The position numbers were made by a program, and so were the translations under genes. Positions 232 through 47,670 of a DNA stretch of 64,000 nucleotides are shown piece by piece; the first letter of the stretch is position 1, and each line of letters starts with the position of its first letter. This DNA is from a bacterium (GTDB lineage Bacteria > Elusimicrobiota > Elusimicrobia > Elusimicrobiales > UBA9959): NCBI GenBank assembly GCA_021789695.1, contig JAJYJH010000005.1:1-64000 (forward strand), in the 5' to 3' direction. The notes beneath the pieces were generated by a model that saw only the letters and a program-made list of their open reading frames with translations, made no database searches and had not been told where the DNA came from.

Positions 232-250
232 AGGATCTCATAGGGGACTC

Positions 251-389: not shown

Positions 390-739
390 TACCAAAACTG
401 CAATTGTTCTTTAATTTGCGGCTGTTCGTCTATTCGCCGCAGTAATTTGCGCTTTCCCCTACTCAAAGTAAGCATACCTCCCCACTGACCGTCGGTCATA
501 AACAGGCATTGTACGGTACCGGATTCCGGCACCATCCCCCTCAATTCATTGACCAATCCCTGTTTTTTCTCTAGCGTGACGGAGGACCTGGCATAAGCCG
601 AATACTGAAGCATGAGGTAACCGGAATCGAGAAGCTGATTCCGAAAATGCGCCGCATCCTTTCGTTCCTGCGCGGTAGTTACCGGCAAATCGAACAAGAC
701 AAGCAGCCAGCCCATGCGGTACCTACTTACCTTCCCCAT
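389..739 (-). CDS. cas2: CRISPR-associated endoribonuclease Cas2 (type II)
   Basis: Small adaptation protein of 116 aa that forms the Cas1-Cas2 integrase complex inserting new spacers. The N-terminal beta strand reads GWLLVLFDLPVTT, with the conserved Asp at position 17, followed by the ferredoxin-fold pattern of Cas2; length is slightly above the usual 90-110. The chosen ATG (737-739) lies inside the end of cas1, overlapping by 17 bases; a second ATG at codon 9 (MGWLLV) is possible. Last gene of the cas9-cas1-cas2 operon, with its stop touching the terminator hairpin. Confidence 0.93.
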   Translation of the reverse strand: MGKVSRYRMGWLLVLFDLPVTTAQERKDAAHFRNQLLDSGYLMLQYSAYARSSVTLEKKQGLVNELRGMVPESGTVQCLFMTDGQWGGMLTLSRGKRKLLRRIDEQPQIKEQLQFW

Positions 740-23247: not shown

Positions 23248-24680
23248 AGCTCTGTTCCCTTCTGCTTCCAGCAGTCCCGGGGAAGGCCAGCCTTCTGCGA
23301 GCAGAGTTCCCCCATGAAAGCGTCTTTGCCTGGCAGTTCCTTCCAAACCTGAGGCAGGAAGAGGCCGCTGTGCCCGTTCCCGGCCACCACCACACCCTCC
23401 TTGCCCGGTTTTATGTCCCGGGCCTTGACCGGTGTGAGCGGCGAAAGGACAGAAACTTCTATACTTACCCCGCCCAACTCTTCCTTCCCGAGCGGGCCGA
23501 ACCTGCGGTCGCGGAAGGCCGCGCTGAAAGCGGCGAAGCGCACCGCGTCCACGAGCGTCATGTCCGGTTCCACCGTACCGACGCAACCGCGCAGCTTTCC
23601 GTCTTCCTTGAGCGTCACGAAGACCGACCCCGGCAGGTCCAGTCGTGGATCAGGGTCCAGGCCGGCCGGCTGCGGTTCGCCGGCGAAGACGCGCTCCAGC
23701 GTCCGGCGCGCCTCCTTCAGCAGCGCTTGCCGTTCGGCACCGGAAAGGACGAGGTCCGCCGGCTTGCCGGCGTCGGTGAAGACCCCGCTCATGTAACCCA
23801 CTACGGACTCCGGACCGGCCTCGCCGCTCTCCGAAGAGGAATCCGAAAGCGCCAGCGGCGTGAACGACTTCGCGCCCAGAAGCTTCGCCGCCGTCATGCC
23901 GGCCTCTATGGCCGCCTCGCCACAGGCGCAGGTGACGAGGTTCTGGATGTTCTTGGCCAGTATGTAATGGGCTGTAGTCCAGACCAGGGCCGGGGCCATG
24001 CTCTCGATAGCCAGCTTCATCGCCCCGTCCGATTCCGCCGCCACGGCCTTCCGCGGGTAATGGGAGAAATCGGAGGACATGACTATCAGCGCCTTCCTGC
24101 CCTTCAGCGCGGCGGCCAGCGCCCGGCCGACGGCCTCGGCCGTAGCCAGATTGCCGGTGTTGAGCGTGGCGGCCAGCAGCTTGAACGGCTTCTTCAGGCG
24201 GCGTTGCAGGAAAGGCAACTGCACTTCTATGGAATGCTCCTTCTCGTGCGCGGCAGGATCGTCCTTGAAGAGCGGGCTCGACTTGATCAATTCCCTGGCC
24301 AGGGCCCGGTCCGTCGGCACCTTCCCCAGAGGGGTGCTGTAGTCGTCCGAGGCCAGGAGCGCGGCACCCCTGACCGGCGCGTAATGGCCGGTGCCCAGGA
24401 TCACCACGGTATCGTAGCCGGCGTCCAGGAACCAGTAGGACATGCCGGCCACGCGGCCGGAGAAGTCGTAGCCGGCGTGCGGGGATATGACCGCCAGCAC
24501 CTTGCCGGCAGGCCGCCCGGCGTCCTTAGGGACGGAAAGCCAGGCGTCCACCCGCCGGGCCAGCTCTTTCGGATTGGAAGGATAGAACTTGCCGGCCACG
24601 GCGGGCTCGCGCGCGGAGCCCGGTCCGGACAGCAGCGGCAGCGCTAAAAAAACCAGCACGGCTAACGCCTTATTGTTCAT
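23208..24680 (-). CDS. AmmeMemoRadiSam protein B (Memo) fused to protein A (AMMECR1), exported
   Basis: 490 aa with a signal peptide (1-23). Memo domain about 25-303 with the family metal-site residues His68 (ISPHAGY), His99 (GTGHYAP), His207 (SSDFSHY) and Cys253 (CACGEA). AMMECR1 domain about 310-490 with its hallmark LRGCVG at 363-368. These two proteins co-occur with the radical SAM enzyme encoded next door; the biochemical role is not established. Here they form one polypeptide that appears to leave the cytoplasm. GGAG lies 7 bases before the ATG. Separated from the radical SAM gene by 19 bases, same operon. Confidence 0.93.
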   Translation of the reverse strand: MNNKALAVLVFLALPLLSGPGSAREPAVAGKFYPSNPKELARRVDAWLSVPKDAGRPAGKVLAVISPHAGYDFSGRVAGMSYWFLDAGYDTVVILGTGHYAPVRGAALLASDDYSTPLGKVPTDRALARELIKSSPLFKDDPAAHEKEHSIEVQLPFLQRRLKKPFKLLAATLNTGNLATAEAVGRALAAALKGRKALIVMSSDFSHYPRKAVAAESDGAMKLAIESMAPALVWTTAHYILAKNIQNLVTCACGEAAIEAGMTAAKLLGAKSFTPLALSDSSSESGEAGPESVVGYMSGVFTDAGKPADLVLSGAERQALLKEARRTLERVFAGEPQPAGLDPDPRLDLPGSVFVTLKEDGKLRGCVGTVEPDMTLVDAVRFAAFSAAFRDRRFGPLGKEELGGVSIEVSVLSPLTPVKARDIKPGKEGVVVAGNGHSGLFLPQVWKELPGKDAFMGELCSQKAGLPRDCWKQKGTELYSFTVDAFREKK

Positions 24681-24699
24681 AGTCCCACTCCGTTCCGGA

Positions 24700-25929
24700 C
24701 TACTTCCAGATACCGGGAATCCTGGTCCCGTCCCAAGGGCAGAGCCCGCCGGTGGGCGTCAGGCGGTCCTCCAGCACGGCGTAGCCGTAGCGGCGCACCA
24801 GCACGCGTCCGCACTTAGGACAGAAGGTGTTCTCCCCAGGGTCTCCCGGCACGTTGCCGACGTAGACGTAATGCAGGCCCCTGGCCATCGCTATCTCCCG
24901 CGCCTTGTCCAGCACGGCCGCTGGGGTCGGCGGCGCGTCGGTCAGCAGATATTCCGGCATGAATCTGGAGAAGAACAACGGCGTGTCGGCCCCCAGGTTG
25001 TCCTTTACCCAGCCGGATAGGGCGGCCAGGTCCCGCTGCGAGTCGTTCAACCCGGGAATCACCAGATTGACCACCTCCGTCAGCTTCTTCTTTTTCTTCA
25101 GCTCCAGCAGCGTCCGCTTGACGGCCTCCAGGTCGCCCCCGGCGTAACGGCGGTAGAAGGATGGCGTGAAACCTTTCAGGTCTATCTTCACCACGTTCAT
25201 GTAGGGAAGCAGCTCGTCGAGCGGGCGGCGGTTGATGTAGCCCGCGCTGACCATGACGTTCTTCAGGCCGGCCGCGTGCGCCAGTTTCGCGGTGTCGTAC
25301 ATATACTCGTAGAAGACCGAGGGCTCGGAATAGGTGAAGGCCACGGAGCGGCAATGCGTCGCCTTGGCGTAGCGCACTACCTCCTCCGGGGAGAGCTCGG
25401 AGGTTACCGCGGTGAAAATCTCTCCGTAAAGCCTGCCGTCGGGACCCCGCCTAACGGCCAGGGAGGAAGGGACCGCGGACGCGGCCGGGGCCTGCTCCGG
25501 GTAGATTTGAGAGATCTCCCAGTTCTGGCAGCCCCTGCACCTGAGATTGCAGCCCGGAGCGGCCAGCGAATACACCAGGCTGCCAGGGTATATGTGGTAG
25601 ACCGGCTTCTTCTCTATAGGGTCAACGTGCACCGCAGCCGGCAGGGCGTAAACCAGGGTCTTCAGCTTCCCGCCGGAATTCATGCGCACCCTGCAGCGGC
25701 CCCGCGCGCCTTCCGGCAGGAAGCAGTTCCACGGACAGAGGCGGCACCGCACGCCGTCGCAGACGGGGGCCGCGAAACGGGCGTCACGGACGTGCGGGTT
25801 ACTTTCCGGAAAGAGGGAGGCGAAGGTTGAAGGAGGCGGTCTGAAGGCCGTCAGAGCCGCGGCCGCCACCGCCATGCCCGCGGCCGCGAAAGCCCAGGCG
25901 AAGGCGGCGGCCGCGCGCCGGCGGCTCAT
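24700..25929 (-). CDS. AmmeMemoRadiSam system radical SAM enzyme, membrane-anchored
   Basis: 409 aa. The radical SAM cluster motif CNLRCRGC (Cys127, 131, 134) is preceded by a Cys-rich entry (Cys57, 62, 65, 69, 79; CRLCPWNC), and CPKC lies near the C-terminus; all are usual for this family. The N-terminus SRRRAAAAF followed by a hydrophobic stretch (about 10-28) looks like a Tat-type or anchoring signal. The ATG at 25929 overlaps the LOG gene stop (ATGA). The frame extends to 26049 inside the LOG gene but shows no conserved sequence. Confidence 0.92.
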   Translation of the reverse strand: MSRRRAAAAFAWAFAAAGMAVAAAALTAFRPPPSTFASLFPESNPHVRDARFAAPVCDGVRCRLCPWNCFLPEGARGRCRVRMNSGGKLKTLVYALPAAVHVDPIEKKPVYHIYPGSLVYSLAAPGCNLRCRGCQNWEISQIYPEQAPAASAVPSSLAVRRGPDGRLYGEIFTAVTSELSPEEVVRYAKATHCRSVAFTYSEPSVFYEYMYDTAKLAHAAGLKNVMVSAGYINRRPLDELLPYMNVVKIDLKGFTPSFYRRYAGGDLEAVKRTLLELKKKKKLTEVVNLVIPGLNDSQRDLAALSGWVKDNLGADTPLFFSRFMPEYLLTDAPPTPAAVLDKAREIAMARGLHYVYVGNVPGDPGENTFCPKCGRVLVRRYGYAVLEDRLTPTGGLCPWDGTRIPGIWK

Positions 25930-26795
25930 TTTTTGCTGGCCTCTTCGTACGGGTGGGCCTTGTAGAAGGCCTTTATCCGCCCGAGGATCTCTTCGCCAGA
26001 TTCGGCGAAGGAGAAGAGGTCCAGGTCCTCCTCGGAGATGTAGCCCCACTTGGCCATGTTCCTGAAGTGGATGACGTCCTCCCAGTACTTCCTGCCCACC
26101 AGCACTATGGGCAGGCGGCTCTTCTTGCCTGTCTGCACCAGCGTCAGGACCTCGAAGAGCTCGTCCATCGTGCCGAAGCCGCCGGGGAACACCACCAGGG
26201 CCCTGGCCCGCATCACGAAGTGCATCTTACGGATCGCGAAGTAGTGGAAGCGGAAGCAGAACTCGGGGGAAACGTAAGGGTTCGGGCCCTGCTCCATCAT
26301 CAGCGTGATATTGAGGCCCACGCTGTGCGCGCCGGCCTCATGAGCGCCGCGATTGGCGGCCTCCATGATACCCGGGCCGCCTCCGGTGACCACCACCAGC
26401 TTGCGGCCGTTGTTTAGCACGTCGGTCTGCGAGACCAGACGGCCGAAATCTCGGGCTATTTCATAGAACTTGGTGGACGCCCTGAGGCGCTTCACGGAGG
26501 CCAACTTATTGCGGAGCATCGGATTCTTCGGGTCCTTCTTCAGCATGGCCTCGACGCTCTTTACGCGCTCGTCGGTCTGCTCCTTGTCCCAGCTCCGCGC
26601 GCTGCCGAAGACCACGACGGTGGACTTAACGTCGTGTTCCTCCAGTATCATCTCCGGCTTCAGCAGCTCCAGCTGCAGCCGCACAGGGCGCAGTTCGTCG
26701 CGGCTAAGGAACTCAGGGTCGGTGTAAGCCTTGCGGTAAGCTGGCGACCTGCGCAGCGCCAGAATTTCCTTGCTGACTTTGGGGGTTTTATTCAC
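25926..26795 (-). CDS. LOG family protein (TIGR00730 Rossmann fold)
   Basis: 289 aa. Signatures VVTGGGPGIMEAANRGAH and FPGGFGTMDELFE (PGGxGTxxE) define the family once called lysine decarboxylases; members split nucleoside 5'-monophosphates to release base and ribose phosphate (LOG activity in cytokinin makers). An N-terminal extension of about 90 residues is present, as in longer bacterial members. GTG start at 26793-26795 with AAGGAG six bases before it. First gene of the operon with the AmmeMemoRadiSam pair. Confidence 0.9.
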   Translation of the reverse strand: MNKTPKVSKEILALRRSPAYRKAYTDPEFLSRDELRPVRLQLELLKPEMILEEHDVKSTVVVFGSARSWDKEQTDERVKSVEAMLKKDPKNPMLRNKLASVKRLRASTKFYEIARDFGRLVSQTDVLNNGRKLVVVTGGGPGIMEAANRGAHEAGAHSVGLNITLMMEQGPNPYVSPEFCFRFHYFAIRKMHFVMRARALVVFPGGFGTMDELFEVLTLVQTGKKSRLPIVLVGRKYWEDVIHFRNMAKWGYISEEDLDLFSFAESGEEILGRIKAFYKAHPYEEASKK

Positions 26796-29684: not shown

Positions 29685-30716
29685 CTACCAGACCATCTGG
29701 AAACCGAACCGGTTAGTGGCGCCGAGCTCGCCGTAGCCGACATAGGAGTAGTCTATCCTGGTCCCCCCCAGCAGGCTGTTTTTGTCGGAGACGCTGTCGA
29801 AGTTGAGGCCGAAGCCGCCACTGACTTTGGAGCCGGTGTCCTTAAGCGAGGTATAGCCGAGGCGCAACTGAAAAAGGCGCATGATGTCCACCTGCAGGCC
29901 AGTGTCCGAGATATAATTCTGGTCGCGGTATTTCACCAGATCGGAGGCGACGGTGAAGATCATAATGTCGTTCACGGTGTGAAAATCCTTGGCCAGGCCG
30001 GCCCGCAGCGAGGAAGGCAGCTGCGCGGAGGATCCCTCGAACTTCTGCGCCGAGCCGAAGTTCATGGCCGAGGCGCCCAGCTGCAGGTGGTGCGGCAGCA
30101 CCAGCAGCACGCCGGCGTCGAAGGCCATGGCGGAGGAAGACGTGCCGGCCAGATCCTCGCTGATCTGCTTTACCGTGGCCCCGGCGGAAAAGCGGTAGAC
30201 CTTAGGGCGGTAGTCCCGCACCGGCTCTATGCGGGTCCAGGGCGGCGTTATCAGCATCGGGTCCAGTTTGCCGGCGTCCTGCGGGTAATGCGGCCAACTC
30301 TGGGCGAAGGAGAGCTCGGCGAAGCGGTGGCTGGTGGAGGCCTTGCCTATCGGCATATCGTTCTGGTCATAGGCGTCGATCTGCCCGCTGGAAAGCGCCG
30401 AGTAGGCCGCGCCCAGAGTCCCGAACGGGAAACGCCAGGACAGCGAGAGGTAGCCCTGGTTTACGCCCAGTATATACTGGTTATACGAGGCGGAAAGGGC
30501 CGAATAACTGAGCAGGCCCAGGCCGGCCGGGTTGTAGAGGATGGAGTCGGGCCCGACCATCGCGGTATAGGCCTCCCCCATGCCGGAAGGAATGGCCGCC
30601 ACCGGGATCTTCAGAAAATCCGCCGCCGTGGTGCCGGCGGAGGCGGCGTGCGACGGCACTCTCCCGGCGGCCAGCAGGGCCGCAGAGAAGATGAGTATCG
30701 GGACGCGCTTCGACAT
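29685..30716 (-). CDS. PorV/PorQ-type outer-membrane barrel protein
   Basis: 343 aa with a signal peptide (1-24). The N-terminal pattern TTAADFLKIPVAAIPSGMGEAYTAM followed by LYNPAGLGLL is the mark of the PorV/PorQ (UPF0164) barrels; the C-terminus ends in an aromatic strand (RFGFQMVW). In Bacteroidota PorV shuttles type IX secretion cargo; here only the fold is certain. It is transcribed divergently from the FliF-FliG operon and has its own promoter. Confidence 0.85.
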   Translation of the reverse strand: MSKRVPILIFSAALLAAGRVPSHAASAGTTAADFLKIPVAAIPSGMGEAYTAMVGPDSILYNPAGLGLLSYSALSASYNQYILGVNQGYLSLSWRFPFGTLGAAYSALSSGQIDAYDQNDMPIGKASTSHRFAELSFAQSWPHYPQDAGKLDPMLITPPWTRIEPVRDYRPKVYRFSAGATVKQISEDLAGTSSSAMAFDAGVLLVLPHHLQLGASAMNFGSAQKFEGSSAQLPSSLRAGLAKDFHTVNDIMIFTVASDLVKYRDQNYISDTGLQVDIMRLFQLRLGYTSLKDTGSKVSGGFGLNFDSVSDKNSLLGGTRIDYSYVGYGELGATNRFGFQMVW

Positions 30717-30768
30717 AGTGTATAAGCGAGGCGGCCGAAAGGGACAGACAGCCTTCCAACCGTATAAT

Positions 30769-30796
30769 AGTATACACTAATGACCGGCGGTTTCAA
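30769..30796 (-). promoter_or_regulatory. promoter of the PorV-like gene
   Basis: Minus strand: -35 TTGAAA (30791-30796), 16-base spacer, -10 TATACT (30769-30774); leader of about 45 bases to the ATG at 30716. Confidence 0.6.
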
Positions 30797-30842
30797 TAAC
30801 AGATTTGTTACAGCGCGGGTGAAAATTCCGGGCGCGCCTTTT

Positions 30843-30851
30843 TGGTATAAT
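30843..30851 (+). promoter_or_regulatory. extended -10 promoter of the motor operon
   Basis: TGGTATAAT is a perfect extended -10 box; no good -35 is seen. Start expected near 30858, followed by GGGGGGA (30881-30887) and the ATG at 30899. It lies about 75 bases from the divergent PorV-like promoter, so one regulator could serve both. Confidence 0.65.
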
Positions 30852-30898
30852 AGTGCGTTGTAACGCTGCACAATATACGCGGGGGGAAACGTTCCGTT

Positions 30899-32413
30899 AT
30901 GACTAGACAGATTCTGTTCGTGCTCGTTCTGGCCGCGCAAGCGCTGCTCTGCGGCGCCCCGGTTTTCGCCCAGTCCTCCAGCAAGACCTCGCTGGAGGCC
31001 CAGCTTGCGCTGGAAAGTTCCCTCGAAAAACGCGTCCAGATGGTGCTCTCTGAGGCACTGGGCACAGACGACGTGATAGTTATAATCTCCGCCGAGCTCC
31101 AGCAGCAGAACAAAAAAGCCCCGGAGCTCCTGCCCGGCGTGCCGCAAGAGGGCAGGATGGGCGAGCCATCGCTCTCCAGCTCCCTGACCATGGTAAAGTC
31201 AATCTCGGCACAGCTGATCCTGGACAAGGCGATGCCGGATGCTGACGTGAACCTGGCGAAGAAACTTACCGCCGGCCTGCTGGGCCTGCCGCCCGACAGG
31301 GAGGACCTTGTCAGCGTGGAGAGGATGGATTTCCGCCGCGCCAAGCCGATGACGGCATACGACCTGCTGGCGCCTGCGAACTTCTGGAGCCTGGCCTGGA
31401 TCATCGTCGTCGTCCTGCTCGCCCTTTTTACGATCTCGGTCTTCCTGGCGCCGGCCTCCAGGAGCCTGCGGACCTTCGCCGAATCCGCAGCGGCCAGGAC
31501 TGCGGCGCAGGAGGCCGCCCCCGCCGTGCGAAGGGAGGCGGCGCGAGAACCTGAGCCGAATGAACCGGCGACCGGGCAGGCCCAGCAGACCGCGCCCCCC
31601 AGGGCCCCGGCGGAAGACGGGCCAAAGCCCCCCTTTTGGTTCCTCTCACCGTCCCACCTTTCCAGCCTGGCCTTCATAATGAAGGAACACCCGGTGGAAG
31701 ACATTACCATCCTGCTGAGCTACTCCCCGCCAGAGCTGGCCGGCAAGCTGGCAGAGGCGCTGTATCCCAGGAGCGCGGAGGCTTTGGCCGCGCTGCCGCG
31801 CGTAACACTGATGCCGGAAGCACGTGTCCGGGCGCTGGAGACCGAAATCAGGAACGCGCTTGATTTCGTGGTGGGCGGAGAGGACAAGACCGTGGAGATT
31901 CTGAGCGGCCTGGACGAAAGCGTTCAGGAGAAGGCCCTGGCGGCCTTCTCCCGCCTGAATCCGGCTATGGCGCGGAAAATCCGCGCCTCCGTAGTGCGGT
32001 TAGCTAATGTGCTGGACCTGGAGCCTGCGCACGCGCAGGCGCTGGCCAGACGCCTGCCGATGCGGCTTCTTGCCGCCGCGCTCAAAGGCTCTCCGTACGC
32101 CTCCTCCTTCGCGGCAAAGCTGACCGGCGGTATGCAGGAGCGTCTCAAGCAGGAACTGGATCTCACGAGGGACCTCCCTCCGGAGGCCTACAAGGGCGAT
32201 CGCGTGAAGGTGGTGGAGGCCATGCGCCAGATGCTCAAAGAGGGGCTTATCGCCCTGAGACCGCAGGCCGCGGCGCCCCACGCGCCCAGGCCCGCCGGCG
32301 CCCCCCCAGCCGCCCAGCGCCAGCCGGTACCCGCCGCGGTTGGGGCAGCCCCCGCGCAAGCCGCCGCCATCCCCCCCGCCTCCAGGCCGGAACAGCCGGC
32401 GCCTAAACCCTGA
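30899..32413 (+). CDS. natural FliF-FliG fusion (membrane ring domain plus rotor torque domain)
   Basis: 504 aa. Signal peptide 1-24; residues 30-147 match the third ring-building domain of FliF (LEKRVQMVLSEALGTDDVIV ... DREDLVSVERMDF); TM 163-184 matches FliF's last TM; a Pro/Ala linker follows. From 251 it matches the FliG middle domain (EHPVEDITILLSYSPPE at 263-279, GG at 326-327, EILSGLDE) and then the FliG C-domain (ALKG at 394-397, then the charged helix and LKEGLIAL). The FliG N-domain, which only docks FliG onto FliF, is absent, as a fusion would allow. The first two FliF ring domains and TM1 are also absent. Pro/Ala-rich tail 456-504. First gene of a five-gene operon; next is MotA. 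Confidence 0.85.
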   Translation: MTRQILFVLVLAAQALLCGAPVFAQSSSKTSLEAQLALESSLEKRVQMVLSEALGTDDVIVIISAELQQQNKKAPELLPGVPQEGRMGEPSLSSSLTMVKSISAQLILDKAMPDADVNLAKKLTAGLLGLPPDREDLVSVERMDFRRAKPMTAYDLLAPANFWSLAWIIVVVLLALFTISVFLAPASRSLRTFAESAAARTAAQEAAPAVRREAAREPEPNEPATGQAQQTAPPRAPAEDGPKPPFWFLSPSHLSSLAFIMKEHPVEDITILLSYSPPELAGKLAEALYPRSAEALAALPRVTLMPEARVRALETEIRNALDFVVGGEDKTVEILSGLDESVQEKALAAFSRLNPAMARKIRASVVRLANVLDLEPAHAQALARRLPMRLLAAALKGSPYASSFAAKLTGGMQERLKQELDLTRDLPPEAYKGDRVKVVEAMRQMLKEGLIALRPQAAAPHAPRPAGAPPAAQRQPVPAAVGAAPAQAAAIPPASRPEQPAPKP

Positions 32414-32434
32414 CGAAGAACGAGGTAAAGAAAA

Positions 32435-33208
32435 ATGGACCTGATGACTTTTTTGGGAGCCGCCACCGGCATGGGCGTCATCGTCTTCGTCCTCTCCTCC
32501 GGCGGGATGCTGCGCTTTCTGCTGAACTGGGAGGCGATTATCCTTATTTTCGGGGGCACGCTGGGCTCTGTGATGATAGCCTACCCGTGGGCCGCGCTGA
32601 AATGGGTGAGGTCCTCGCTGGTGATGGTAATTTTCCCTCCCAGGCGGGCCCCGATCAACGAACTGATCCGCGCCATTGTCCGCTTCGCCGAGATAGCCAA
32701 GAGGAGCGGCGTCGACGCGATAGCAGGGGAACTGCGCTCCTCGCCGCATCCGTTCCTCACCGACGGCCTTCAGATGATGCTCGACGGCGTTGACATCCAC
32801 ATCCTGCGCGAGCGCATGGAGAACGACATCAACACGACGCGCCTGCGCCACCAGCAGCAGACCAACATCTTCACCTCGGCCGGCACCTTCGCCCCGATTT
32901 TCGGACTGCTCGGCACGCTCATAGGCGTCGTGCAGGTGCTCCGGAACATCCAGAACCCTCAGATGATGGGCTCTTCCATGGCCATCGCGATGACCGCGTC
33001 GTTCTACGGCATCTTCTCGGCCAACTTCCTGTTCCTGCCGATAGCCAGCAAGCTCGGCTACTATTCCGACGAGGACATCCTGAGCCGGGAGATCATCGCC
33101 AAGGGCGTGCTGTCCGTCTACGAGGGCGACGTACCGTGGCTGGTCTCAAAAAAACTGGAAGGTTATTTATCCCTGGCACTCAGGCGCAAGGCGAAGGCCG
33201 GAAAGTAG
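32435..33208 (+). CDS. motA: MotA-like stator protein
   Basis: 257 aa with four TM segments and a large cytoplasmic loop. Pro154 (TFAPIFGLLGTLIG) and Pro202 (ANFLFLPIASKL) correspond to the two prolines needed for torque in MotA. The loop holds the LRERMEND charged segment that contacts FliG, and EGDVPWLVSKKL matches the usual end motif. It should form the five-subunit ring around the MotB pair and push on the FliG domain of the preceding gene. GAGGT before the ATG. Confidence 0.94.
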   Translation: MDLMTFLGAATGMGVIVFVLSSGGMLRFLLNWEAIILIFGGTLGSVMIAYPWAALKWVRSSLVMVIFPPRRAPINELIRAIVRFAEIAKRSGVDAIAGELRSSPHPFLTDGLQMMLDGVDIHILRERMENDINTTRLRHQQQTNIFTSAGTFAPIFGLLGTLIGVVQVLRNIQNPQMMGSSMAIAMTASFYGIFSANFLFLPIASKLGYYSDEDILSREIIAKGVLSVYEGDVPWLVSKKLEGYLSLALRRKAKAGK

Positions 33209-33238
33209 TGGGCCGCGCTCGGGACCGGACGGCCGAAG

Positions 33239-33913
33239 ATGAAGTTCTTCATCGAACGCTACACTAAACGCAAGGTAGAGGAGAACCCCCTCTGGCTGGT
33301 CGTACTGTCCGACATCATGACCAATCTGATGCTGTTCTTTTTAATCCTCTACGTCTTCGCTATCCAGCCGGAGTCCGACGCGCGGGCGATGTTCATGAGC
33401 GGCTTCGACAAGGAGGCCGCTCAGAAGATGAAGGAGAAGAAGGCCGAGGAAGTGGTAAAGAAGTTCACCGAAGAAGACGTGGCGAAGAGGCTCGACGAGG
33501 ACCTGCTCAGGGCGGGAATGAAGGACATGGCGCAGGTGCAGGTGACCTCCAAGGAGATAAAGATAAACATAGCCGCCCCTATACTTTTCCCCTCCGGCAG
33601 CGCGGATCCCGCCCCCTCCTCGGCGCGGGTCCTCGGACCGGTGGCCGCCATACTAAACAAGCTCCCGAACGACGTGATAGTGGAAGGTTTCACGGACAAC
33701 GTGCCGATAAAGTCCGGCAGGTACGCCACCAACTGGGAACTGTCCGCCGCCCGGGCCACGGCCATCGTGGACCTGCTGGCGGACAAGTACTCGGTCTCTC
33801 AGGCCAGGATGATCGCCGCCGCCTACGGCGAGTACCGCCCTGTCGCGGACAACAATACGCGCGAGGGGCGGGCGCGCAACCGCCGCATTGAGATCATAGT
33901 ACCCAGAAAATGA
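33239..33913 (+). CDS. MotB-like stator protein, first copy
   Basis: 224 aa. A single TM carries the ion-binding Asp25 (LVVLSDIMTNLMLFFL). A charged Lys/Glu-rich helix follows (about 55-95, possible plug/linker). The OmpA-like peptidoglycan-binding domain (about 110-222) has EGFTDNVP, NWELSAARA and NRRIEI. It anchors the stator to the wall. Its stop overlaps the start of the second MotB-like gene. Confidence 0.92.
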   Translation: MKFFIERYTKRKVEENPLWLVVLSDIMTNLMLFFLILYVFAIQPESDARAMFMSGFDKEAAQKMKEKKAEEVVKKFTEEDVAKRLDEDLLRAGMKDMAQVQVTSKEIKINIAAPILFPSGSADPAPSSARVLGPVAAILNKLPNDVIVEGFTDNVPIKSGRYATNWELSAARATAIVDLLADKYSVSQARMIAAAYGEYRPVADNNTREGRARNRRIEIIVPRK

Positions 33914-34569
33914 GAGCTAACGACGCGAAAAAGACCAACACGCAACTCTGGATGGTGCCCTACGCGGACCTGATGTCCACGTTGGTGATACTTTTCCTGG
34001 CGCTGTACGGCTTCGCCTACAACTCCAAGCGCCCCGACTACGAGGCGGCTCTCGCCAAAATGCAGGAGGAACTGGGGATACGGCCTCCGCAGGAGCGCAA
34101 AAAAGAGATAGAGGCGGCCTCTAAGGTGGAGCGCGAGCTGAAGGACCAGATTAAGCAAGGCAGCCTTGGCATGGAAGTGACGGTCTCGCGGATAAAATTG
34201 ACTTTTTCCTCCCCGGTGCTCTTCGACTCCGGCTCGGCCGCGCTAAAACCCGCCGCCAGGCGCGTCCTCGCCCCCATAGCGGGCAGCCTTCTGAAGATGG
34301 ACAACCGGGTGATCGTAGGGGGCCACACGGATTCTTCCCCCGTCGTCGGCCACAAGTTCGCCTCGAACAGGGAGCTCTCACTGATGCGGGCCTTCTCGGT
34401 GATAGACTACCTGGTGAAGAAAGGCGTGGAGCCGGCGCGCCTGACCGCTTTCGGATACGGCGAGTACCGCCCGGTCGCACGCAACGACACTGCGGAGGGA
34501 CGCTTGAAGAACCGCCGGATTGAGCTGATCATAGTACGGCAAGCGGGCAAGGAGGAAGGTACCCCATGA
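33910..34569 (+). CDS. MotB-like stator protein, second copy
   Basis: 219 aa. TM with Asp20 in WMVPYADLMSTLVILFL, closer to the flagellar MotB consensus (YADxMT) than the first copy. OmpA-like domain about 100-210 with GGHTDSSP, SNRELSLMRA and NRRIEL. The two MotB proteins differ throughout but share the GYGEYRPVA/AYGEYRPVA segment. Overlaps both neighbours by 4 bases, so all three should be made in matched amounts. Confidence 0.92.
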   Translation: MRANDAKKTNTQLWMVPYADLMSTLVILFLALYGFAYNSKRPDYEAALAKMQEELGIRPPQERKKEIEAASKVERELKDQIKQGSLGMEVTVSRIKLTFSSPVLFDSGSAALKPAARRVLAPIAGSLLKMDNRVIVGGHTDSSPVVGHKFASNRELSLMRAFSVIDYLVKKGVEPARLTAFGYGEYRPVARNDTAEGRLKNRRIELIIVRQAGKEEGTP

Positions 34570-35453
34570 GAAGTCTTGCGCTTACGGTTCTGCTGCTGCC
34601 AACGCCGGCCGCGGCCGCGGCCACCCAGGACCGGCCGGCCGACGCCGCCATGAAGGGGTACTATGACAAGGCCTTCACCTACTACGTGGATGGTGACTAT
34701 CCGAAGGCCATAGAGCAGTGGGACATGGTCCTGCAAGAGGACCCGAAGCAGACAACGGCCAGGAACATGATAGACCAAGCCCGCAGGAAAATGGCCGGCT
34801 CGGCCGGGAAGTTGAAGGACGAGTTCATGGGCCTAGTTGACAGGGGCCGCTATCAGGACGCGCTGCTTAAACTGGAAGAACTTCTCGCCACCGACCCCAC
34901 AAATCCGTATTACCTACGGGCGCAGTCCAGGCTGCAGCGGATTGCGGGTACGGTCAGGGCCAGCCGGCGTTCCGCGGCCTGGCGCGCGGCGGAAAAAGGG
35001 ATCAGCGCCTGGGTAGGCGAAGACGAGGACCTCCCTTTCGCTTACGACGCCCTGCGCTACGCCAAGGAGCTGGCCCCGGCTGAAAAGGCCTTTCCCAGAC
35101 TGATTGCCGACCTGGAGCGGGAATCCCCGCAGCTTAAGCTGAACGACACCAAGCCCCCGGATACGCCCGTTCTGGAGCATAAGAAAGACCTGGCGCTGCA
35201 GGACATCTACGACACCAAGTACTATCTTGCGGTAAAGGAACTGGAAGAGGTGCTGCGGTTGGCGCCAGACGACCTGACGGCCTTGAAGCGCCTCGGCTCC
35301 GCCTATCTGCAGCTCAAGGATTATCCCCGCGCTAGACGCTCGTGGCAAAAAGCCCTCCGCCTCTCGCCCGGAGATGACCAGCTCAAACAGTACCTCGACG
35401 CGCTGGACAAACTAAAGCGGCCGGCGGGCGTAGCCGCCGGGAATCCAGGATAG
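34566..35453 (+). CDS. exported TPR protein of the motor operon
   Basis: 295 aa with a short signal peptide (about 1-19). TPR-like helix pairs at about 28-72 (GDYPKAIEQWDMVLQEDPKQ), 82-120 and 215-280 (LEEVLRLAPDDLTALKRLG, DYPRARRSWQKALRLSPGD). AGGAGG lies 9 bases before the ATG, which overlaps the second MotB stop. Likely a periplasmic scaffold joining the stator to an outer-membrane partner; this role is inferred from position. Confidence 0.8.
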   Translation: MRSLALTVLLLPTPAAAAATQDRPADAAMKGYYDKAFTYYVDGDYPKAIEQWDMVLQEDPKQTTARNMIDQARRKMAGSAGKLKDEFMGLVDRGRYQDALLKLEELLATDPTNPYYLRAQSRLQRIAGTVRASRRSAAWRAAEKGISAWVGEDEDLPFAYDALRYAKELAPAEKAFPRLIADLERESPQLKLNDTKPPDTPVLEHKKDLALQDIYDTKYYLAVKELEEVLRLAPDDLTALKRLGSAYLQLKDYPRARRSWQKALRLSPGDDQLKQYLDALDKLKRPAGVAAGNPG

Positions 35454-35466
35454 TCTGACCTGGGGC

Positions 35467-37383
35467 CTAAAAAGAATAATTATAGCGGGTGAGGACGTTG
35501 AGGCTGGTACCTGTATTGGCCGTGTAGACCCTGTCCGTCCTTGAGACGCCGCCAACCCCGAAAGTGAACCTAGAGTTCTGACTGCTGACCCAGACAGTTT
35601 CCACGTTGACGGACAACGAGTTGTTCCGGGCAGGGGTCTGGATGGAATCGTTCCTGGCCGAGGCAAGAGTGACCCAGCACTGCACGGCCATCGCGCGGCG
35701 AGGCATGGCGTAGGAGACGTTCCCGGTCACGCTGGTGTTCCGATCCGTGGAGGAGTCCACCTTGTCCTTAGTGCCAGAAGCCACCAGCCCGGCGGAGAAG
35801 TTCAGCACCCTCGAGAGCGGGAAGTTGGAATTGAACGAGAACAGGGAAGTGCTGAGGTCGTGCGACAGGTGAGTGTTGTCCTTGAACTCGCTCTGCTGCA
35901 TGCCCGCGGTGAGCGTGTCCCGGCCCAGCGGCTGGGTGACGCTGAAGTTGAGGGTGGTGGTCCTGTTATCCTGCACGCCGGCCTGTTTGGCCTTGGCCGC
36001 GCTGGAACTTAGCGACGTGCTTAGTACCGTCCTTCCTCCCAGCCGCAGCATATTGCCGATCGTCGTTTGGGTCTGGGTCGTGGTGGTCTTGGACGGGTCC
36101 GAATCCAGGTTGTCGGTATAAGTATTCACAGAGGCGGAGAAGGAGGTCCAGTCCGCCGGGAAGAAGCCGAACTCCGCGTCCACGGTCCGCCTGTCAGGGA
36201 TTACCGACGGGCTGGCGAAGGAGTAGAAATCCGGGGCCACGCGCGATATTGAGCCTCTGGCGGTAAGCAGCCCGGACTTGTACTTGAGCTCCTGCCTCCA
36301 GGCCGTTCCGCCCACGCCCGCAGCCCCTGACTGCAGGTCGGCCTTATAAGAACTCAACTGGTAATCGCTGTTGAGCGAGAAACGGCCCCAGAAGCGCCAG
36401 TCGGCGTTCAGGCCGTAGACCAGGTTCTGCTGGGGTTTGACTAGGAGCGTATCCGTTGTGATGGCGATGGAATGCATGTCGTCGCGGCTCAGTACCGCGT
36501 CGGCCGAGACCATCAGGTTCGGGCGGAAGCGCCAGCCCGCCTTGAAGCCCCCTGAATAGCGGGCGTACCTCCCGCCGCCGCTCAGGCCGGGTTCCTGCGG
36601 CGCGACTATGCGGCCTATCAGCGCGGTGACGGAGTAGTCCGCAGTGTTCCGGTCGTAGGAGACGCCCCGCATACCCTGCCCGTCCATCGAGAGCGGCGTC
36701 AGCGACGGGGAGATGTCCCCCGCCGCCAGCGTCCCCCACGGAGCGTAATAGTCGAGCAGCACTACGGTCGGCGTGATCGGCTTGTTGTAGGAGTGGACGA
36801 TATAGGTGTTGAACAAAAAAGAGGACTGCTTTATCCTGCCGACCAGGTTGGCCGAAGTAATCCCCTGCGACTCCCCCCAGGAATTGTCGCTGGAGTTCTT
36901 GTAGGTAAAAGAAACGTCCCCGCCGACCTTAAAATCCTGCGGTATCGGCGGCCGCAGCTCCTTCTCCACCACCTGAAAGCCCTTGTAGTCCGTCGCCAAT
37001 ATCCGCTTGCCGTCTTTGATCAGGAAGACCCGGTAAAGCAGCCGGCGCCCCTGCAGATTGTCCGGCACCAGGAACGGCAGTTGCTCGCCCTGGGCCGTGC
37101 CCGGGGATACGTCCTCGGCGGGAGAAAGCGCGTCGGTCTGCGCCAGGAATTTACGGCTGTCCCCGTCTATTTCGTAAATCTCGGCTATCCAGTAGTACGT
37201 GCCGCGTTTCCAGACCGTGGAGCCTGTATTCACCGCCAGCGTCTGAAGGCGCACCTCCTCTCCAGCCATCACCGGGTCAGGGGCGGCTACTGTGAACTGG
37301 AGGCTGGCGCCGTCGTCGGCGTAGCAGGCGCCCGCGGAAAAGGACGCCAGCAGGAGCAGCGGGATAAATCTTTTTTTCAGCAT
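35467..37383 (-). CDS. predicted large outer-membrane beta-barrel with N-terminal Ig-like domain
   Basis: 638 aa. Signal peptide about 1-22, Ig-like domain about 25-140 (AAPDPVMAGEEVRLQTLAVN), then more than twenty alternating polar/hydrophobic strands with aromatic ends, closing in a C-terminal Phe (NVLTRYNYSF) as barrel proteins do. I do not recognise a named family. It converges on the motor operon, with 13 bases between stops. Confidence 0.65.
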   Translation of the reverse strand: MLKKRFIPLLLLASFSAGACYADDGASLQFTVAAPDPVMAGEEVRLQTLAVNTGSTVWKRGTYYWIAEIYEIDGDSRKFLAQTDALSPAEDVSPGTAQGEQLPFLVPDNLQGRRLLYRVFLIKDGKRILATDYKGFQVVEKELRPPIPQDFKVGGDVSFTYKNSSDNSWGESQGITSANLVGRIKQSSFLFNTYIVHSYNKPITPTVVLLDYYAPWGTLAAGDISPSLTPLSMDGQGMRGVSYDRNTADYSVTALIGRIVAPQEPGLSGGGRYARYSGGFKAGWRFRPNLMVSADAVLSRDDMHSIAITTDTLLVKPQQNLVYGLNADWRFWGRFSLNSDYQLSSYKADLQSGAAGVGGTAWRQELKYKSGLLTARGSISRVAPDFYSFASPSVIPDRRTVDAEFGFFPADWTSFSASVNTYTDNLDSDPSKTTTTQTQTTIGNMLRLGGRTVLSTSLSSSAAKAKQAGVQDNRTTTLNFSVTQPLGRDTLTAGMQQSEFKDNTHLSHDLSTSLFSFNSNFPLSRVLNFSAGLVASGTKDKVDSSTDRNTSVTGNVSYAMPRRAMAVQCWVTLASARNDSIQTPARNNSLSVNVETVWVSSQNSRFTFGVGGVSRTDRVYTANTGTSLNVLTRYNYSF

Positions 37384-37420: not shown

Positions 37421-40400
37421 TTACCTGATAATCGCGAACTTCTTCACCGCCTCGCCGGCGGCGCCAGTAGAAACGTCCCTGACGCGTAGCACGTACAAAT
37501 AGATCCCCGGAGCGATTCCGTCGCGCGCCACGTCCCAGGTCATAATCCAGCCTCCAACCGCCGGCGGAGCGGCGGAGTACGAATGCAGCGTCTTCACCAG
37601 CCGGCCGGTTATGTCGAACACCTGCACTACCGCGGTGAAGGAGGCCGCCGCGGGGGCGAAGCGGAAGTTCACCAGCGTCCTGGCCGGGTTTGGGTAGGCG
37701 AACACCCCGCTCTTGTCGAAAAGATCGAACTTTGGGGTGAAGACCAGCCGCTGTCCCGGGGAGAGCGTGACGGTCTGCATCCTGCTGAAAGCCGTCCCGT
37801 TGAAGACGCGCAGGCCATAGGTCCCCGGCAGCAGGTTCGGCACCGTAAAGGCGCCGGAGGAATCCGTGAAGGCCGCGCCGATGCGGCGGCCGCGGCTGTA
37901 GACCTCCACGAAAGGCCGGGAACCTTCCGAGGACGACACCTCCCGGGTGGTATAACGCGCTCCCGCTGTGCGGGGCACCGAGGCCGGCAGATAGGCGGAC
38001 GGGATAATGCCGGAAATTGAGGCCAGCTGGTAGGCGACGCTCAGCCTGAAATCCACTCCGGACGAGCCGTTCAGGACAGAATCCTTGGAAACCGAACTTT
38101 CTATATCCGCGGCCGTCCAGGCGGCCCGGACTGTGAGGTAAAGAGAATTCAGGCCGGGTATGGAATACCGGCCGAAGGCGTTGGTGTAATCGGAACCTTC
38201 GAGGGCCCCGGTCTGGCCGAAGGCCTGCACCAGGACCCCGGTAATGGGCTGGGTGGAGGCGTCCAGGACGGTGCCGCTCAGCGCGCCGCTGCCGGCCGTT
38301 CCCGGAAGGGACGAGGCCTCGTTAGAAGGAGGCGACCAGTTGCCGGCATCGTCCTGCGTCCAGAGCGTAAAGTAACAGGTCACTCCGGGATTCAGCGAAT
38401 TGATGGTGAACTGCTGGGTGGAGCCTGCGGTAACCGCCGAGGTCGTGATGCTGATCTGCGCCGTAGCAGTGGAGACCACGGCGCCGCTGTAGGTGGAGTA
38501 CGCCACCTTGTAGGCCCCGGACAGCAGATATCCGGACGCGCCGTTGTCCCCGGCGCTGCGCCACAACAAGGCCACGGCCCCGCCGTAGGAACCCTGCGAG
38601 GCGGCAAGGCTGTAAGTGGCGGGAGGCGGGGTCGCGTCCAGGTAGGTGAAGGTGGCGCCGGAGACGAAGAACTCACCCGCATTAGGCGGAGTCGCGGCGT
38701 CGAAGGCGCGCACGGTCGCGTAATACGAGGCGCCGTCCACCAGGGAATCCCGCAGGTAGGGAGGGAAAGTCCAGGTCCAGAATTCCGTGGTGCCGGCCAG
38801 CAGCGGGACCGGCCCGCTTCCCCATGACGAGAGGGCGCCGTTCCACCATTTTCCGTCGGAGAGGCGTTGCAGCGCCGCCTGCACGGCCGTCACTCCGGAA
38901 ACGGCGTCGGCCGCGGTCCCGCTTATCGAGACGGCCGAAGGCACAGAGGCCCCGTCCGCAGGATAAAGTAGCGCGGCCGATGGAGGCGCAGAGTCGAAGG
39001 TAAACGTGCGCGTGTCGAACACCTGCGAGTAATCTCCGGCCGAATCCGAGGACCTGGCCACTACGGCGTATTGCCGGCCGTCCACCAGAGGCAGGCCGTT
39101 GAAAGTCAGCGTGAAAGAGCTTGCCTGTTGCGAGGCGTCCAGCCAGACCACTGACGCCGAGAGGAAAGCGCTGCCGCCGTAGTACAGACCGGTGTAGAGG
39201 TCCCTGAGATAGACCTCGGTGCCCAGCACCGGGTGGGCGTTGGTCTCCGCAGTAGTTCCCGACACGGCGGTGAAGGTGGAAAGGTACATGGCGGACGGCG
39301 ATGAGATATATACCACCGGGCCCGAGACGTTCTTCGCCACGGCGAACGCGTCGAGCAGCGTGGCCGTGGACCCGGCCACGTCCACGGCCCGGAGGCTGAA
39401 ATAGTTGGAGGTCGCGTTGGCCAGCTGGTTAAAGCTGTAGGAGAGCGCGGGGGCGTACCCGGTGGCGCCGGCGGCCAACGAACCGATATCGGTCCACGGA
39501 ATCACATTCCCGTCGGCGAAGCCCTTGTTGGTGCTGACGCTGAACTGCGCCTTCTGCAGACCGGAGAAACCATCCGAAAAGCTCACCCCAGTCGCGTTCC
39601 CGGGATAATCGGCGAACCAGGCCGCAGAAACGGAATAGGTCGAGACGACCACAGGAGGTACGGCGTCCTTGAGGACGGAGAAGGTATCGCTCAGCACAGT
39701 ATAGTTGGGCGGGCTGGCGTTGTCGTAGACGCGCACCGATATGTAGTTGGACGCCCCGTCCAGCATTGAATTCCAGACCGTCTCCGGGATGGTCCAGGGG
39801 ACGACGTAGGAAGGCTGGTTTATGGCTGTGACCGCGTCCATCCAGGGAGTGAACGGGTGTCCTGGAACGGTAGAGACCTGGAGCTGGAACTTGGACAGGC
39901 CGGAAGCTCCGACGTCGGCGAAATAGATATGGCACAGGAAGGTGTTGGTGCTCTTCCAGCCCTGGAAGTCCGGCTGTTGGTCGTTTATGGTCGGGCTGTC
40001 CACGTCCAGCGTCGGGTCGAACGTGGTGCGGACAGGCGGCAGCGCGGCGAATCGGGAGGCTCGGCCGGCCGCGTCCAGCACCCTGACTTTGGCGTAGTAG
40101 GTGGTGCTCTGGGAAAGTCCGGTGAGGGTCAGCGAGCTGCCGGACGCGGTAAAGGCGGCCGGGCCGGAAAAATCCGGAGAGGTGGAGCGGACCAGCTCGT
40201 AAAGCGTTCCGGACGGGTTGCCTGCCGGGTCCCAGGCGGCCGTAGCAGAATCCACCCAGACGCCGAACCACGGGGCCGTGGCGGGGATTGCGGCGTACGT
40301 TATAGTGGAGCCCGACAGGGAATAATCCGTCTCCACGCCGGTCCAGTTACGCGCCTTGGCGCGGAAATAATAGGTCGTGTCCGGCCGCAGTCCTCCGAAG

Positions 40401-41998
40401 TCGGCCGCCGGAGAGGAGTTCCAGCCAGAGGACCTCAGGCCGGAACTGAAATCTGCACTTTCGGCTGCCTGCACCAGATAGCCGGCACCGGGAACCGTAG
40501 CGTATACCTCGTCGGAAAGAGGAGAGGCGCCAGAGGAGCCGCCGAAGAGATACAACCTGGAACCCGCCAATTCGGCCGCGGCGAATTGACGCGGGCCCGG
40601 CAGCGGCGCCACCCCTTCCCACGGCGAAAGCCCCTCAGGCGTCACCGTGGTCTGGAAGATCTGGGCCTGCGCCGTATAACCGTTGTTTCCTCCTATCACG
40701 TAGAGGCGGGTGCCAGCGGCGGCGGCCTGATGGCCGTAGCGCGGAGAGGGCAACGGTGCGTAATCGGACCAGTGGCCGGACGCCAGGTTGTAGATCCAGA
40801 CCTCGGAGCGGGCGGAAACGCCGTCCTTTCCCCCGGCTATCACCAGTTCCCCGGGCAGCAGGGTCATCGAGTGGGCATAGCGCGGGGCCGGAAGCGTAGA
40901 GGTGGTCACCCAGGCCTGCAGCGCCCCGTCATCCGACAGGTCCGCGTATTCAAGGCCGTCAAGCACACCGGAGCCGCTGCTGTAACCCCCGGAAACGTAT
41001 ATCCGGTCACCCGCCAGGGCGGCAGCGTGGAAATAGGCCGGCGCCGGCAGGGAAGCCTCCCTCTCCCATGGCCCTGTCGCCCCGGAGGAGGAGATATCGG
41101 CCGACCAGACGTCGGCCCGGGAACCGTCGGACGCGTAACCGCCAAGCACATAGAGCCGGCCCCTGGCCGCCACCATCTGGTGCCCGTAAAGCCCGACCGG
41201 CATGTACCCCGCCGTCTGCCAGCTTCCCAGGGTCCCGTCCTGGGCTACCGGCGCCATAAACACCGCGCTGGAGAAATAAACTCCGTCAAAGCCGCCGCTC
41301 ACGTAGACGTAGGTGCCGTAGACCACGGAGGCTTCTCCGTAAAGGGGCCGCGGGAGTTGCGCCGCGGGCGACGTCCAGCCCTGTATCTGCGGCGGCGGAG
41401 TATCCTGATAACCGGCGAAAGAAAGGGAAAGTGTGTTGTGGCCGGCGTCCGACAGGGTCAGAACTCCGGTCGACGGGACTACAGCCAGCGTTACCGCCGT
41501 GGTGGAGGCCGGAAAGGAATAGTCTCCCTCCATATAGTTGGCGACGACGAAGGAGTAATAGCTGGTGTTCGGGGCTAGCGACTCCACCGGATAGCCGTTC
41601 TGGTCGGTGGAGTAAAAGACCATATAGGGCTCGGCCAGTGCCCACGTGGAAACGAAGAGGTCGTAAGTGGTGCCGGCCGGCTCGGCGGCGGTGCCGTAGA
41701 CTACGGTGTAACTGCTGACGCCGTCAGGAGAATAAGCGAACGCGGCCGGCGAGGAGACCAGTCGCGAATAGAAGCCCGACTCCAGCACGGAAGCGATGCC
41801 GCCGACAACGGACAGTTCGTGCGCTACCGGGGACAGCCCCCCCTGGACCACGGAGACGCCGGCGGCCTGGCCGGAGCTGGCCGACGAATAGTCGTCCGCG
41901 TCCCCGAGCACGGTGATGTAGCCAGCCGTTTTGTTCCCGGCCAGGGCCGGCCGGCCCAGCGCCAGGGCAAGGCAGACCGCGGCCAACAGCGTCCTCAT
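37421..41998 (-). CDS. giant secreted protein: kelch propeller, Ig/Fn3 domains, FlgD/type-A-like C-domain
   Basis: 1525 aa with a signal peptide (1-20). About 215-505: six kelch-type repeats (YVSGG, YVLGG, YVSGG, VIAGG, YVIGG, YLFGG), likely a six-bladed propeller. Then Fn3-like and Ig-like domains to about 1300, a carboxypeptidase-regulatory-like domain (SGTVLDASTQPITGVLVQAF) and a last domain of about 85 aa (YPNPARTLVNFRF ... GIYLYVLRV ... KKFAIIR), which follows the FlgD-Ig/type IX sorting pattern. The same ending (RKFAVVR) occurs in the gene at 50201-53914. Probably exposed on the surface. Confidence 0.8.
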   Translation of the reverse strand: MRTLLAAVCLALALGRPALAGNKTAGYITVLGDADDYSSASSGQAAGVSVVQGGLSPVAHELSVVGGIASVLESGFYSRLVSSPAAFAYSPDGVSSYTVVYGTAAEPAGTTYDLFVSTWALAEPYMVFYSTDQNGYPVESLAPNTSYYSFVVANYMEGDYSFPASTTAVTLAVVPSTGVLTLSDAGHNTLSLSFAGYQDTPPPQIQGWTSPAAQLPRPLYGEASVVYGTYVYVSGGFDGVYFSSAVFMAPVAQDGTLGSWQTAGYMPVGLYGHQMVAARGRLYVLGGYASDGSRADVWSADISSSGATGPWEREASLPAPAYFHAAALAGDRIYVSGGYSSGSGVLDGLEYADLSDDGALQAWVTTSTLPAPRYAHSMTLLPGELVIAGGKDGVSARSEVWIYNLASGHWSDYAPLPSPRYGHQAAAAGTRLYVIGGNNGYTAQAQIFQTTVTPEGLSPWEGVAPLPGPRQFAAAELAGSRLYLFGGSSGASPLSDEVYATVPGAGYLVQAAESADFSSGLRSSGWNSSPAADFGGLRPDTTYYFRAKARNWTGVETDYSLSGSTITYAAIPATAPWFGVWVDSATAAWDPAGNPSGTLYELVRSTSPDFSGPAAFTASGSSLTLTGLSQSTTYYAKVRVLDAAGRASRFAALPPVRTTFDPTLDVDSPTINDQQPDFQGWKSTNTFLCHIYFADVGASGLSKFQLQVSTVPGHPFTPWMDAVTAINQPSYVVPWTIPETVWNSMLDGASNYISVRVYDNASPPNYTVLSDTFSVLKDAVPPVVVSTYSVSAAWFADYPGNATGVSFSDGFSGLQKAQFSVSTNKGFADGNVIPWTDIGSLAAGATGYAPALSYSFNQLANATSNYFSLRAVDVAGSTATLLDAFAVAKNVSGPVVYISSPSAMYLSTFTAVSGTTAETNAHPVLGTEVYLRDLYTGLYYGGSAFLSASVVWLDASQQASSFTLTFNGLPLVDGRQYAVVARSSDSAGDYSQVFDTRTFTFDSAPPSAALLYPADGASVPSAVSISGTAADAVSGVTAVQAALQRLSDGKWWNGALSSWGSGPVPLLAGTTEFWTWTFPPYLRDSLVDGASYYATVRAFDAATPPNAGEFFVSGATFTYLDATPPPATYSLAASQGSYGGAVALLWRSAGDNGASGYLLSGAYKVAYSTYSGAVVSTATAQISITTSAVTAGSTQQFTINSLNPGVTCYFTLWTQDDAGNWSPPSNEASSLPGTAGSGALSGTVLDASTQPITGVLVQAFGQTGALEGSDYTNAFGRYSIPGLNSLYLTVRAAWTAADIESSVSKDSVLNGSSGVDFRLSVAYQLASISGIIPSAYLPASVPRTAGARYTTREVSSSEGSRPFVEVYSRGRRIGAAFTDSSGAFTVPNLLPGTYGLRVFNGTAFSRMQTVTLSPGQRLVFTPKFDLFDKSGVFAYPNPARTLVNFRFAPAAASFTAVVQVFDITGRLVKTLHSYSAAPPAVGGWIMTWDVARDGIAPGIYLYVLRVRDVSTGAAGEAVKKFAIIR

Positions 41999-46715: not shown

Positions 46716-47642
46716 CTAGAACTTCATCCCCACCGAAAACCTGTGGGCCGTTCCCAAGTCGCCGTACGGCAGCATCGCGTAGTCGAACGCGAAGGCGGAG
46801 TACTCGAAACCGGCTCCGGCAAAGAAACCGTACATGCTGTCGACTCCGGAAACTCCACCGTACCCCCGCCCAAGTATGGCGTCCCGCTGGCCGGGCGCCG
46901 CGGTCTTGTAGCCCAGGCGCAGGGCTATCCCCCCGAGGCCCTTGTACTCCGCGCCGGCCATCAGGGCGGCGGGCCCGTCGTTGGGAAACTCGGCGTCCAG
47001 CGCCAGCAGCAGCCGCGGGGCCGCAAAGTCCGCCGCGGCTCCGACCTTCAGTTTCAGCGGCAACGGGAAGCTGTCGTCCTCAAATTTCACGCGCGTGCCG
47101 AAGTTGGCGAGGGCCGCCCCCAGAGAATAGGGAGTGCCCGAAAACCTGTAGAGCAGTCCCAGGTCGGCCGCCAGAGACGTGGCCCCGCTGGACTTTATTC
47201 TCTGGCTTATCACCTTGCCGGTCACGCCGGCCTCCAGCCGTCCGAAGGAGAAACCCCTGGAGAGTTGCGCCGCCACGTCCCTGGCCGTGAAGTTCCCGGT
47301 AGGATTGGCGTATATGTCCCGGCCCTCCAGTTCGCCGGCGGAGAAGTAGGTCAGGGCGGCGGCGTAGGGCCTGCGCATGAAGACCGCCTGGGAGACAGAA
47401 GTCCCCGCCAGGTGGGCCGCGTAGGCCAGATCCAGCCGTTTCCCCGCGTCTCCCGAGGCCAGGCCGGCCGGGTTATAGTATGCGCAGGAGGGCCCCTGCG
47501 CGACGGCCGTATACGCCTCTCCCATTCCCAGAGCCCTCGCGCCGAAGCCCAGGTTCAGGAACTGCGCCGCCGAAGTCCCGGCCGCGCCGGCCCGCGCGGC
47601 CTGAACCGCGAGCAGCGCGGCCAACAGTATTCCCGCTCTCAT
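46716..47642 (-). CDS. PorV/PorQ-type outer-membrane barrel protein, second copy
   Basis: 308 aa, signal peptide 1-20. TSAAQFLNLGFGARALGMGEAYTAV and YYNPAGLAS are the family marks; it ends in an aromatic strand (RFSVGMKF). Only loosely similar to the copy at 29685-30716. GAGGGG before the ATG. It lies between the adhesin and a FecR-domain gene and may help export of the large surface proteins. Confidence 0.88.
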   Translation of the reverse strand: MRAGILLAALLAVQAARAGAAGTSAAQFLNLGFGARALGMGEAYTAVAQGPSCAYYNPAGLASGDAGKRLDLAYAAHLAGTSVSQAVFMRRPYAAALTYFSAGELEGRDIYANPTGNFTARDVAAQLSRGFSFGRLEAGVTGKVISQRIKSSGATSLAADLGLLYRFSGTPYSLGAALANFGTRVKFEDDSFPLPLKLKVGAAADFAAPRLLLALDAEFPNDGPAALMAGAEYKGLGGIALRLGYKTAAPGQRDAILGRGYGGVSGVDSMYGFFAGAGFEYSAFAFDYAMLPYGDLGTAHRFSVGMKF

Positions 47643-47670
47643 ATCCCCTCCGCCCGCCGCTTCACCGCCC

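Follow-up and report, generated by a model that had tools for sequence, protein, structure and literature searches.

A conserved operon joining a FliF-FliG fusion to flagellar-class stator genes in Elusimicrobiota genomes without FlhA

The window analysed here is a stretch of 64,000 nucleotides of contig JAJYJH010000005.1 (contig C28 of the host genome, an Elusimicrobiota metagenome-assembled genome (MAG) of 2.45 Mb and 95.7% completeness), and it raises the question of what flagellar rotor and stator genes do in a genome in which no flagellar export gate was found. The genes are five plus strand open reading frames (ORFs) at 30899-35453, which encode a FliF-FliG fusion, MotA, two MotB proteins and a tetratricopeptide repeat (TPR) protein and are separated by gaps of 21, 30, -4 and -4 nt. 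An earlier note on this DNA had read them as a tight operon encoding a complete rotor and stator for non-flagellar use, and the five ORFs were all located and closely spaced as that note described. Overall, the results suggest that the core of the flagellar motor has a second existence as a machine in its own right, driving something else, probably outer parts of the cell surface.

The fusion protein (504 aa, 30899-32413, plus strand) showed secure homology to FliG. FliG_C matched residues 352-453 above the Pfam cut-off (E 9e-11), the NCBIfam fliG model covered residues 257-423 (E 2e-5) and a profile of 38 fusion orthologues searched against the PDB matched the middle and C-terminal domains of FliG (1lkv) at E 5e-46, a significant result for the segment at residues 251-455 that had been assigned to FliG. 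The homology to FliF was good, with the same profile matching the FliF MS-ring (6scn) at E 5e-4 and hhalign against a FliF alignment covering residues 33-149 of the window's protein (E 2.4e-9, probability 96%). The AlphaFold model of the fusion had a mean predicted local distance difference test score (pLDDT) of 78.7. Foldseek comparison of this model with the PDB placed FliG structures at the top (E 8e-8), with single FliG domains superposing at 1.3-1.9 Å, followed by FliF RBM3/collar rings with a probability of ~1.0 but an E value of only 0.03-0.2. Hydropathy showed a signal peptide and one transmembrane (TM) segment. The domain order was an N-terminal signal peptide, an RBM3-like periplasmic domain (residues 33-149, nt 30995-31345), the TM segment (residues 165-183, nt 31391-31447), a linker, and FliG_M and FliG_C (residues ~244-453, nt ~31628-32257), with a Pro/Ala-rich tail at the C-terminal end. 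RBM1, RBM2 and FliG_N were missing from the chain. Profiles, hhalign and fold all agreed with the claim that RBM3 and the last TM segment of FliF are joined to the M and C domains of FliG.

The neighbourhoods of 80 fusion loci were examined, of which 41 were of the window's type (type A). MotA (257 aa, 32435-33208, plus strand) was of the flagellar stator class, with flagellar MotA/PomA as best models (E 4e-55 to 2e-48) and TolQ reaching only E 1e-3. The MotA tree served for loose grouping only and includes one wrongly chosen, non-TolQ ORF on a very long branch. Both torque prolines that the earlier note had seen were present as P154 (P173 in E. coli) and P202 (P222), and every MotA read, 41 of type A and 10 of type B, kept them, with one position masked. 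The R90-equivalent of MotA (K89 in the window) was basic (Lys or Arg) in 40 of the 41 type A loci. On the FliG side, the D289-equivalent (E419 of the fusion) was Glu in all 41, the K264-equivalent was basic in 38 and the D288 position was Gln in 39. As read from these and the other aligned residues given below, the torque face is partly retained and partly altered. In addition, residue 161 of MotA (equivalent to A180 in E. coli) was Thr in every MotA of types A and B, which we take to be a possible Na+-type signature.

MotB1 (224 aa, 33239-33913) and MotB2 (219 aa, 33910-34569), both on the plus strand, each carried the TM Asp that had been claimed for them (D25 and D20, respectively), a plug and an OmpA-type peptidoglycan-binding domain. 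The two proteins fell into separate clades, each forming one group phylum-wide, and one of each was present in 35 of 35 scored loci. This tree indicates a single old duplication of which both copies were retained. Since each locus holds one MotB1 and one MotB2, a heterodimer is predicted, and the stator is probably heterodimeric with a composition of MotA5:MotB1-MotB2. The last of the five ORFs was the expected exported TPR protein (periplasmic, 295 aa, 34566-35453, plus strand).

The order fusion-MotA-MotB-MotB-TPR was found in 38 of the 41 type A Elusimicrobiota loci; the other three were L111, which meets a contig end, L104, whose TPR call fell below threshold, and L102, in which the MotB calls were merged. 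In type B loci a PorV-TPR protein was encoded directly upstream of the fusion, which had a TPR tail, and many of these loci added a coiled-coil protein, MotA and MotB. Types A and B were each spread over several classes and families. The fusion exists as several old paralogous types, with intact frames and invariant residues retained at 25-30% identity. A scan of 396 Nitrospirota genomes produced full-length or contig-cut fusion matches in 10, while the remaining matches listed covered the FliG part only, in ORFs of ~330 aa. The survey of related genomes that the earlier note had proposed also gave the same five-gene order in 10 of 10 Nitrospirota loci, one of them with the fusion cut by a contig end. 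FlhA was absent from the two fusion-bearing Nitrospirota genomes that were checked, including chromosome CP070669.1. An assembly artefact was rejected because the carriers are many independent MAGs and include a closed Elusimicrobiota chromosome (G292) as well as Nitrospirota chromosome CP070669.1. On a closed Nitrospirota chromosome, an RCC1-repeat and Lcl_C protein (L227:4743-6452, minus strand) is encoded divergently from the fusion, and ORFs of ~550-580 aa occupy the same divergent place in most other Nitrospirota loci.

Genome-wide searches of the host found neither FlhA nor FliM/FliN (PF01052), so the full flagellum elsewhere in the genome that would have spoken against a non-flagellar use was not indicated by an export gate, although no separate search for fliC or flgE was made. 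The three FliG_C matches in the host, on contigs C28, C41 and C4, corresponded to three fusion loci. Four MotA-family genes were present; each fusion had a MotA nearby and the fourth gene, of the MotA/TolQ/ExbB family, was a separate one. Among the 295 Elusimicrobiota genomes surveyed, FliG_C occurred in 120 with up to 8 copies each, FlhA was found in three and absent from 292, and 118 FliG_C-positive genomes were without FlhA. One such fusion carrier (G292) is a single closed chromosome of 3,802,950 bases. The three FlhA-bearing (flagellated) relatives encode FliF and FliG separately. Fusions were common in the larger Elusimicrobiota genomes and nearly absent from two small-genome families (f2 and f15), which, judged from their small genomes, would be host-associated lineages. 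The genomes without FlhA, the gene order kept strictly over large distances and the separate genes of the flagellated relatives upheld the non-flagellar use proposed by the earlier note. The description of the set as complete had to be amended, since a conserved outer-membrane barrel belongs to the locus too; this adjacent barrel and the two further paralogous fusion loci of the host had been overlooked. The third host locus (contig C4, ~199700-211200; L006 and L007) contains a PorV-TPR protein, histidine kinases and a coiled-coil/kinase protein, a set that suggests signal control there.

The sixth component of the locus is an outer-membrane protein of 638 aa (35467-37383, minus strand). Its AlphaFold model (pLDDT 88) showed an N-terminal immunoglobulin (Ig)-like domain followed by 26 barrel strands, and Foldseek retrieved outer-membrane barrels with MtrB of the Mtr complex at the top. 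Leaving the window aside, 40 type A loci remained, of which 30 had relatives, and the protein was absent near all 40 loci of other fusion types. Three arrangements of the gene were observed: in some families it immediately precedes the fusion on the same strand, in another (L109) it immediately follows the TPR gene, and in the window's family it lies convergent beside the TPR gene. The barrel thereby connects the motor of the inner membrane with the outer membrane. On the other side of the operon, a PorV/PorQ-family outer-membrane protein (29685-30716, minus strand) is encoded divergently from the fusion and shares with it an intergenic region (30717-30898) in which promoter-like sites in both directions were found as consensus matches only. 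PorV assignments rest on NCBIfam, and a looser PorV label also matches plain TPR proteins. Beyond the barrel lies a surface protein of 1525 aa (37421-41998, minus strand) with Kelch and fn3 domains and a type A sorting domain of the type IX secretion system (T9SS), which is a candidate cargo or adhesin of uncertain membership in the locus.

From these parts a machine can be proposed, at a probability of roughly 55%, in which a peptidoglycan-anchored stator turns an MS-ring-like rotor and the torque is passed to the outer membrane to move surface proteins, most likely in a gliding type of motility. RBM3 would let the fusion assemble into a ring resembling the MS-ring, with the FliG torque domains sitting on the same chain as the ring domain, so that a FliF-FliG joint, FliM and FliN would not be needed. 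MotA, together with MotB1 and MotB2 anchored to peptidoglycan, would push the FliG_C domain. The periplasmic side of the ring would then act through the TPR protein on the 26-strand barrel and/or the PorV-like proteins, and these may move exported surface proteins such as adhesins. The motor core is strongly supported; homology, domain order and operon conservation are established here, as are the lack of an export gate and the conserved outer-membrane partner, and we infer ring assembly, rotation, a heterodimeric stator, the load and gliding.

Several observations weigh against this machine. The FliF part of the fusion is without RBM1 and RBM2. The FliG R281 position was Gly in 38 of 41 type A loci and the MotA E98 position was not conserved, being mostly Ala or Gln, which removes one of the charge pairs of the flagellar motor. 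In the Nitrospirota loci no such barrel was recognised, so the outer-membrane partner may differ there, and the PorV neighbours of type A loci were conserved mainly in the window's family. The link to T9SS cargo is one of gene neighbourhood only. Finally, the hosts found are all known from MAGs, with no rotation, ring or movement observed.

A motility-type role fits the locus best, and secretion or other envelope work is less favoured. The motor could instead supply energy for exporting or assembling large surface proteins with T9SS tails, replacing or supplementing GldLM, with no part in cell movement. PorV-like and T9SS-tailed proteins adjoin many loci, and the host encodes a SprA/Sov homologue on contig C63 (TIGR04189, E 1e-40, below the curated cut-off) that the Pfam SprA_N model alone misses. 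However, SprA was present in 258 of the 295 Elusimicrobiota genomes, dozens of them fusion-free, while a fusion or FliG_C occurred in ~120; T9SS export in the phylum thus has no general need of the motor, which is not a general T9SS engine, and a dedicated export role is unlikely. Envelope work without motility, in which a Tol-Pal/Ton-like rotary device acts on the barrel for transport, gating or lipid/peptidoglycan upkeep, would suit the peptidoglycan-binding MotBs, the exported TPR protein and the position of the large barrel as the most constant additional part. This is slightly less likely than the export role; a FliG-torque ring is costly for a Ton or Tol task, the locus MotA is of the flagellar and not the TolQ/ExbB class, and the separate fourth MotA/TolQ/ExbB-family gene is available in the host.

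Flagellar export genes in 3 of 295 phylum genomes would allow the locus to be the functionless relic of a lost flagellum. This was rejected as highly improbable on the strict conservation of the operon, the several old paralogous fusion types, the intact frames and the invariant residues at 25-30% identity, and FliF and FliG are separate in the flagellated relatives. A Zorya-like anti-phage defence, in which ZorAB is related to MotAB, was rejected as equally remote: both MotBs matched ZorB models in PADLOC, but these ZorB-like matches came without the ZorA and ZorB pair, no PADLOC model was matched by MotA or by the fusion, TPR and barrel proteins, and the loci, which are linked to outer-membrane genes, remain stable across the phylum.

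To our knowledge, the flagellar rotor, FliG mounted on an MS-ring, occurs only within flagella, or else as relics and unusual chlamydial cases. The locus shares with the bacterial flagellar motor FliF RBM3 and its TM segment, FliG M and C, a flagellar-class MotA with both torque prolines, and the plug and peptidoglycan-binding domain of MotB; it differs in having FliF and FliG in one polypeptide, two MotBs and a barrel, and in the absence of RBM1/RBM2, FliG_N, FliM/FliN and FlhA. The Agl-Glt machinery of Myxococcus (AglRQS-Glt) likewise combines a single MotA-like subunit and a pair of MotB-like ones with TPR proteins and outer-membrane barrels, and we know of no FliF or FliG in it; here, in contrast, the stator is of the flagellar class and not generic TolQR/ExbBD-like, the MotBs have peptidoglycan-binding domains and a dedicated FliG-bearing ring is predicted. 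The GldLM T9SS/gliding machine of Bacteroidota shares a stator of the 5:2 type, powered by ions and expected to act on outer-membrane and surface proteins, in a genome that also encodes PorV- and SprA-like proteins, whereas here flagellar-class MotAB and a predicted FliF-FliG ring would stand in for a GldLM motor and SprA also occurs without the fusion; GldL and GldM were not searched for. Chlamydia is reported to have a natural FliF-FliG fusion with FliG_M only, in genomes with FlhA and an injectisome (PMC4768692). That fusion also belongs to non-flagellated bacteria, but FliG_C and stator genes are present here and FlhA is absent. For engineered fusions of the two proteins, assembly and rotation (PMC4768692) as well as MS-ring formation (PMC11481574) have been reported, and flagellar-class stators form one group apart from non-flagellar ones (PMC12505986). 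A survey reported a rotor protein in 11% of non-motile genomes and proposed another function, with no operon, fusion or system described in the portion consulted (PMC12199754). No description of the operon was found in a search confined to the open-access PubMed Central (PMC) literature. Its parts are familiar, but taken as a system the operon departs from each of the families tested in a defining feature, and on a stricter view it could be a variant of the flagellar motor. A ring-based class of rotary machines independent of type III export, sharing ancestry with the flagellar motor and maybe split from it before the flagellum was complete, which would make this a living rotor and stator without a flagellum, is a tentative and rather doubtful extension, the trees being unrooted as to the split from flagellar motors.

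Other genes of the window were also identified. At 46716-48402 (minus strand), the window encodes another PorV/PorQ-family protein together with one that has a FecR domain, and FecR relatives were found near several other type A loci. Housekeeping neighbours were conserved only inside the window's family. A Memo and AMMECR1 fusion adjoining a radical SAM protein (23208-26049, minus strand) likewise lies beside the motor only in that family. The left end of the window (1-4921) is a low-GC stretch (~51%) with a type II CRISPR system, comprising an array of at least 4 repeats at 66-nt spacing (1-232), Cas2 (389-739, minus strand) and a protein resembling Cas9 that carries HNH and RuvC (1637-4921, minus strand).

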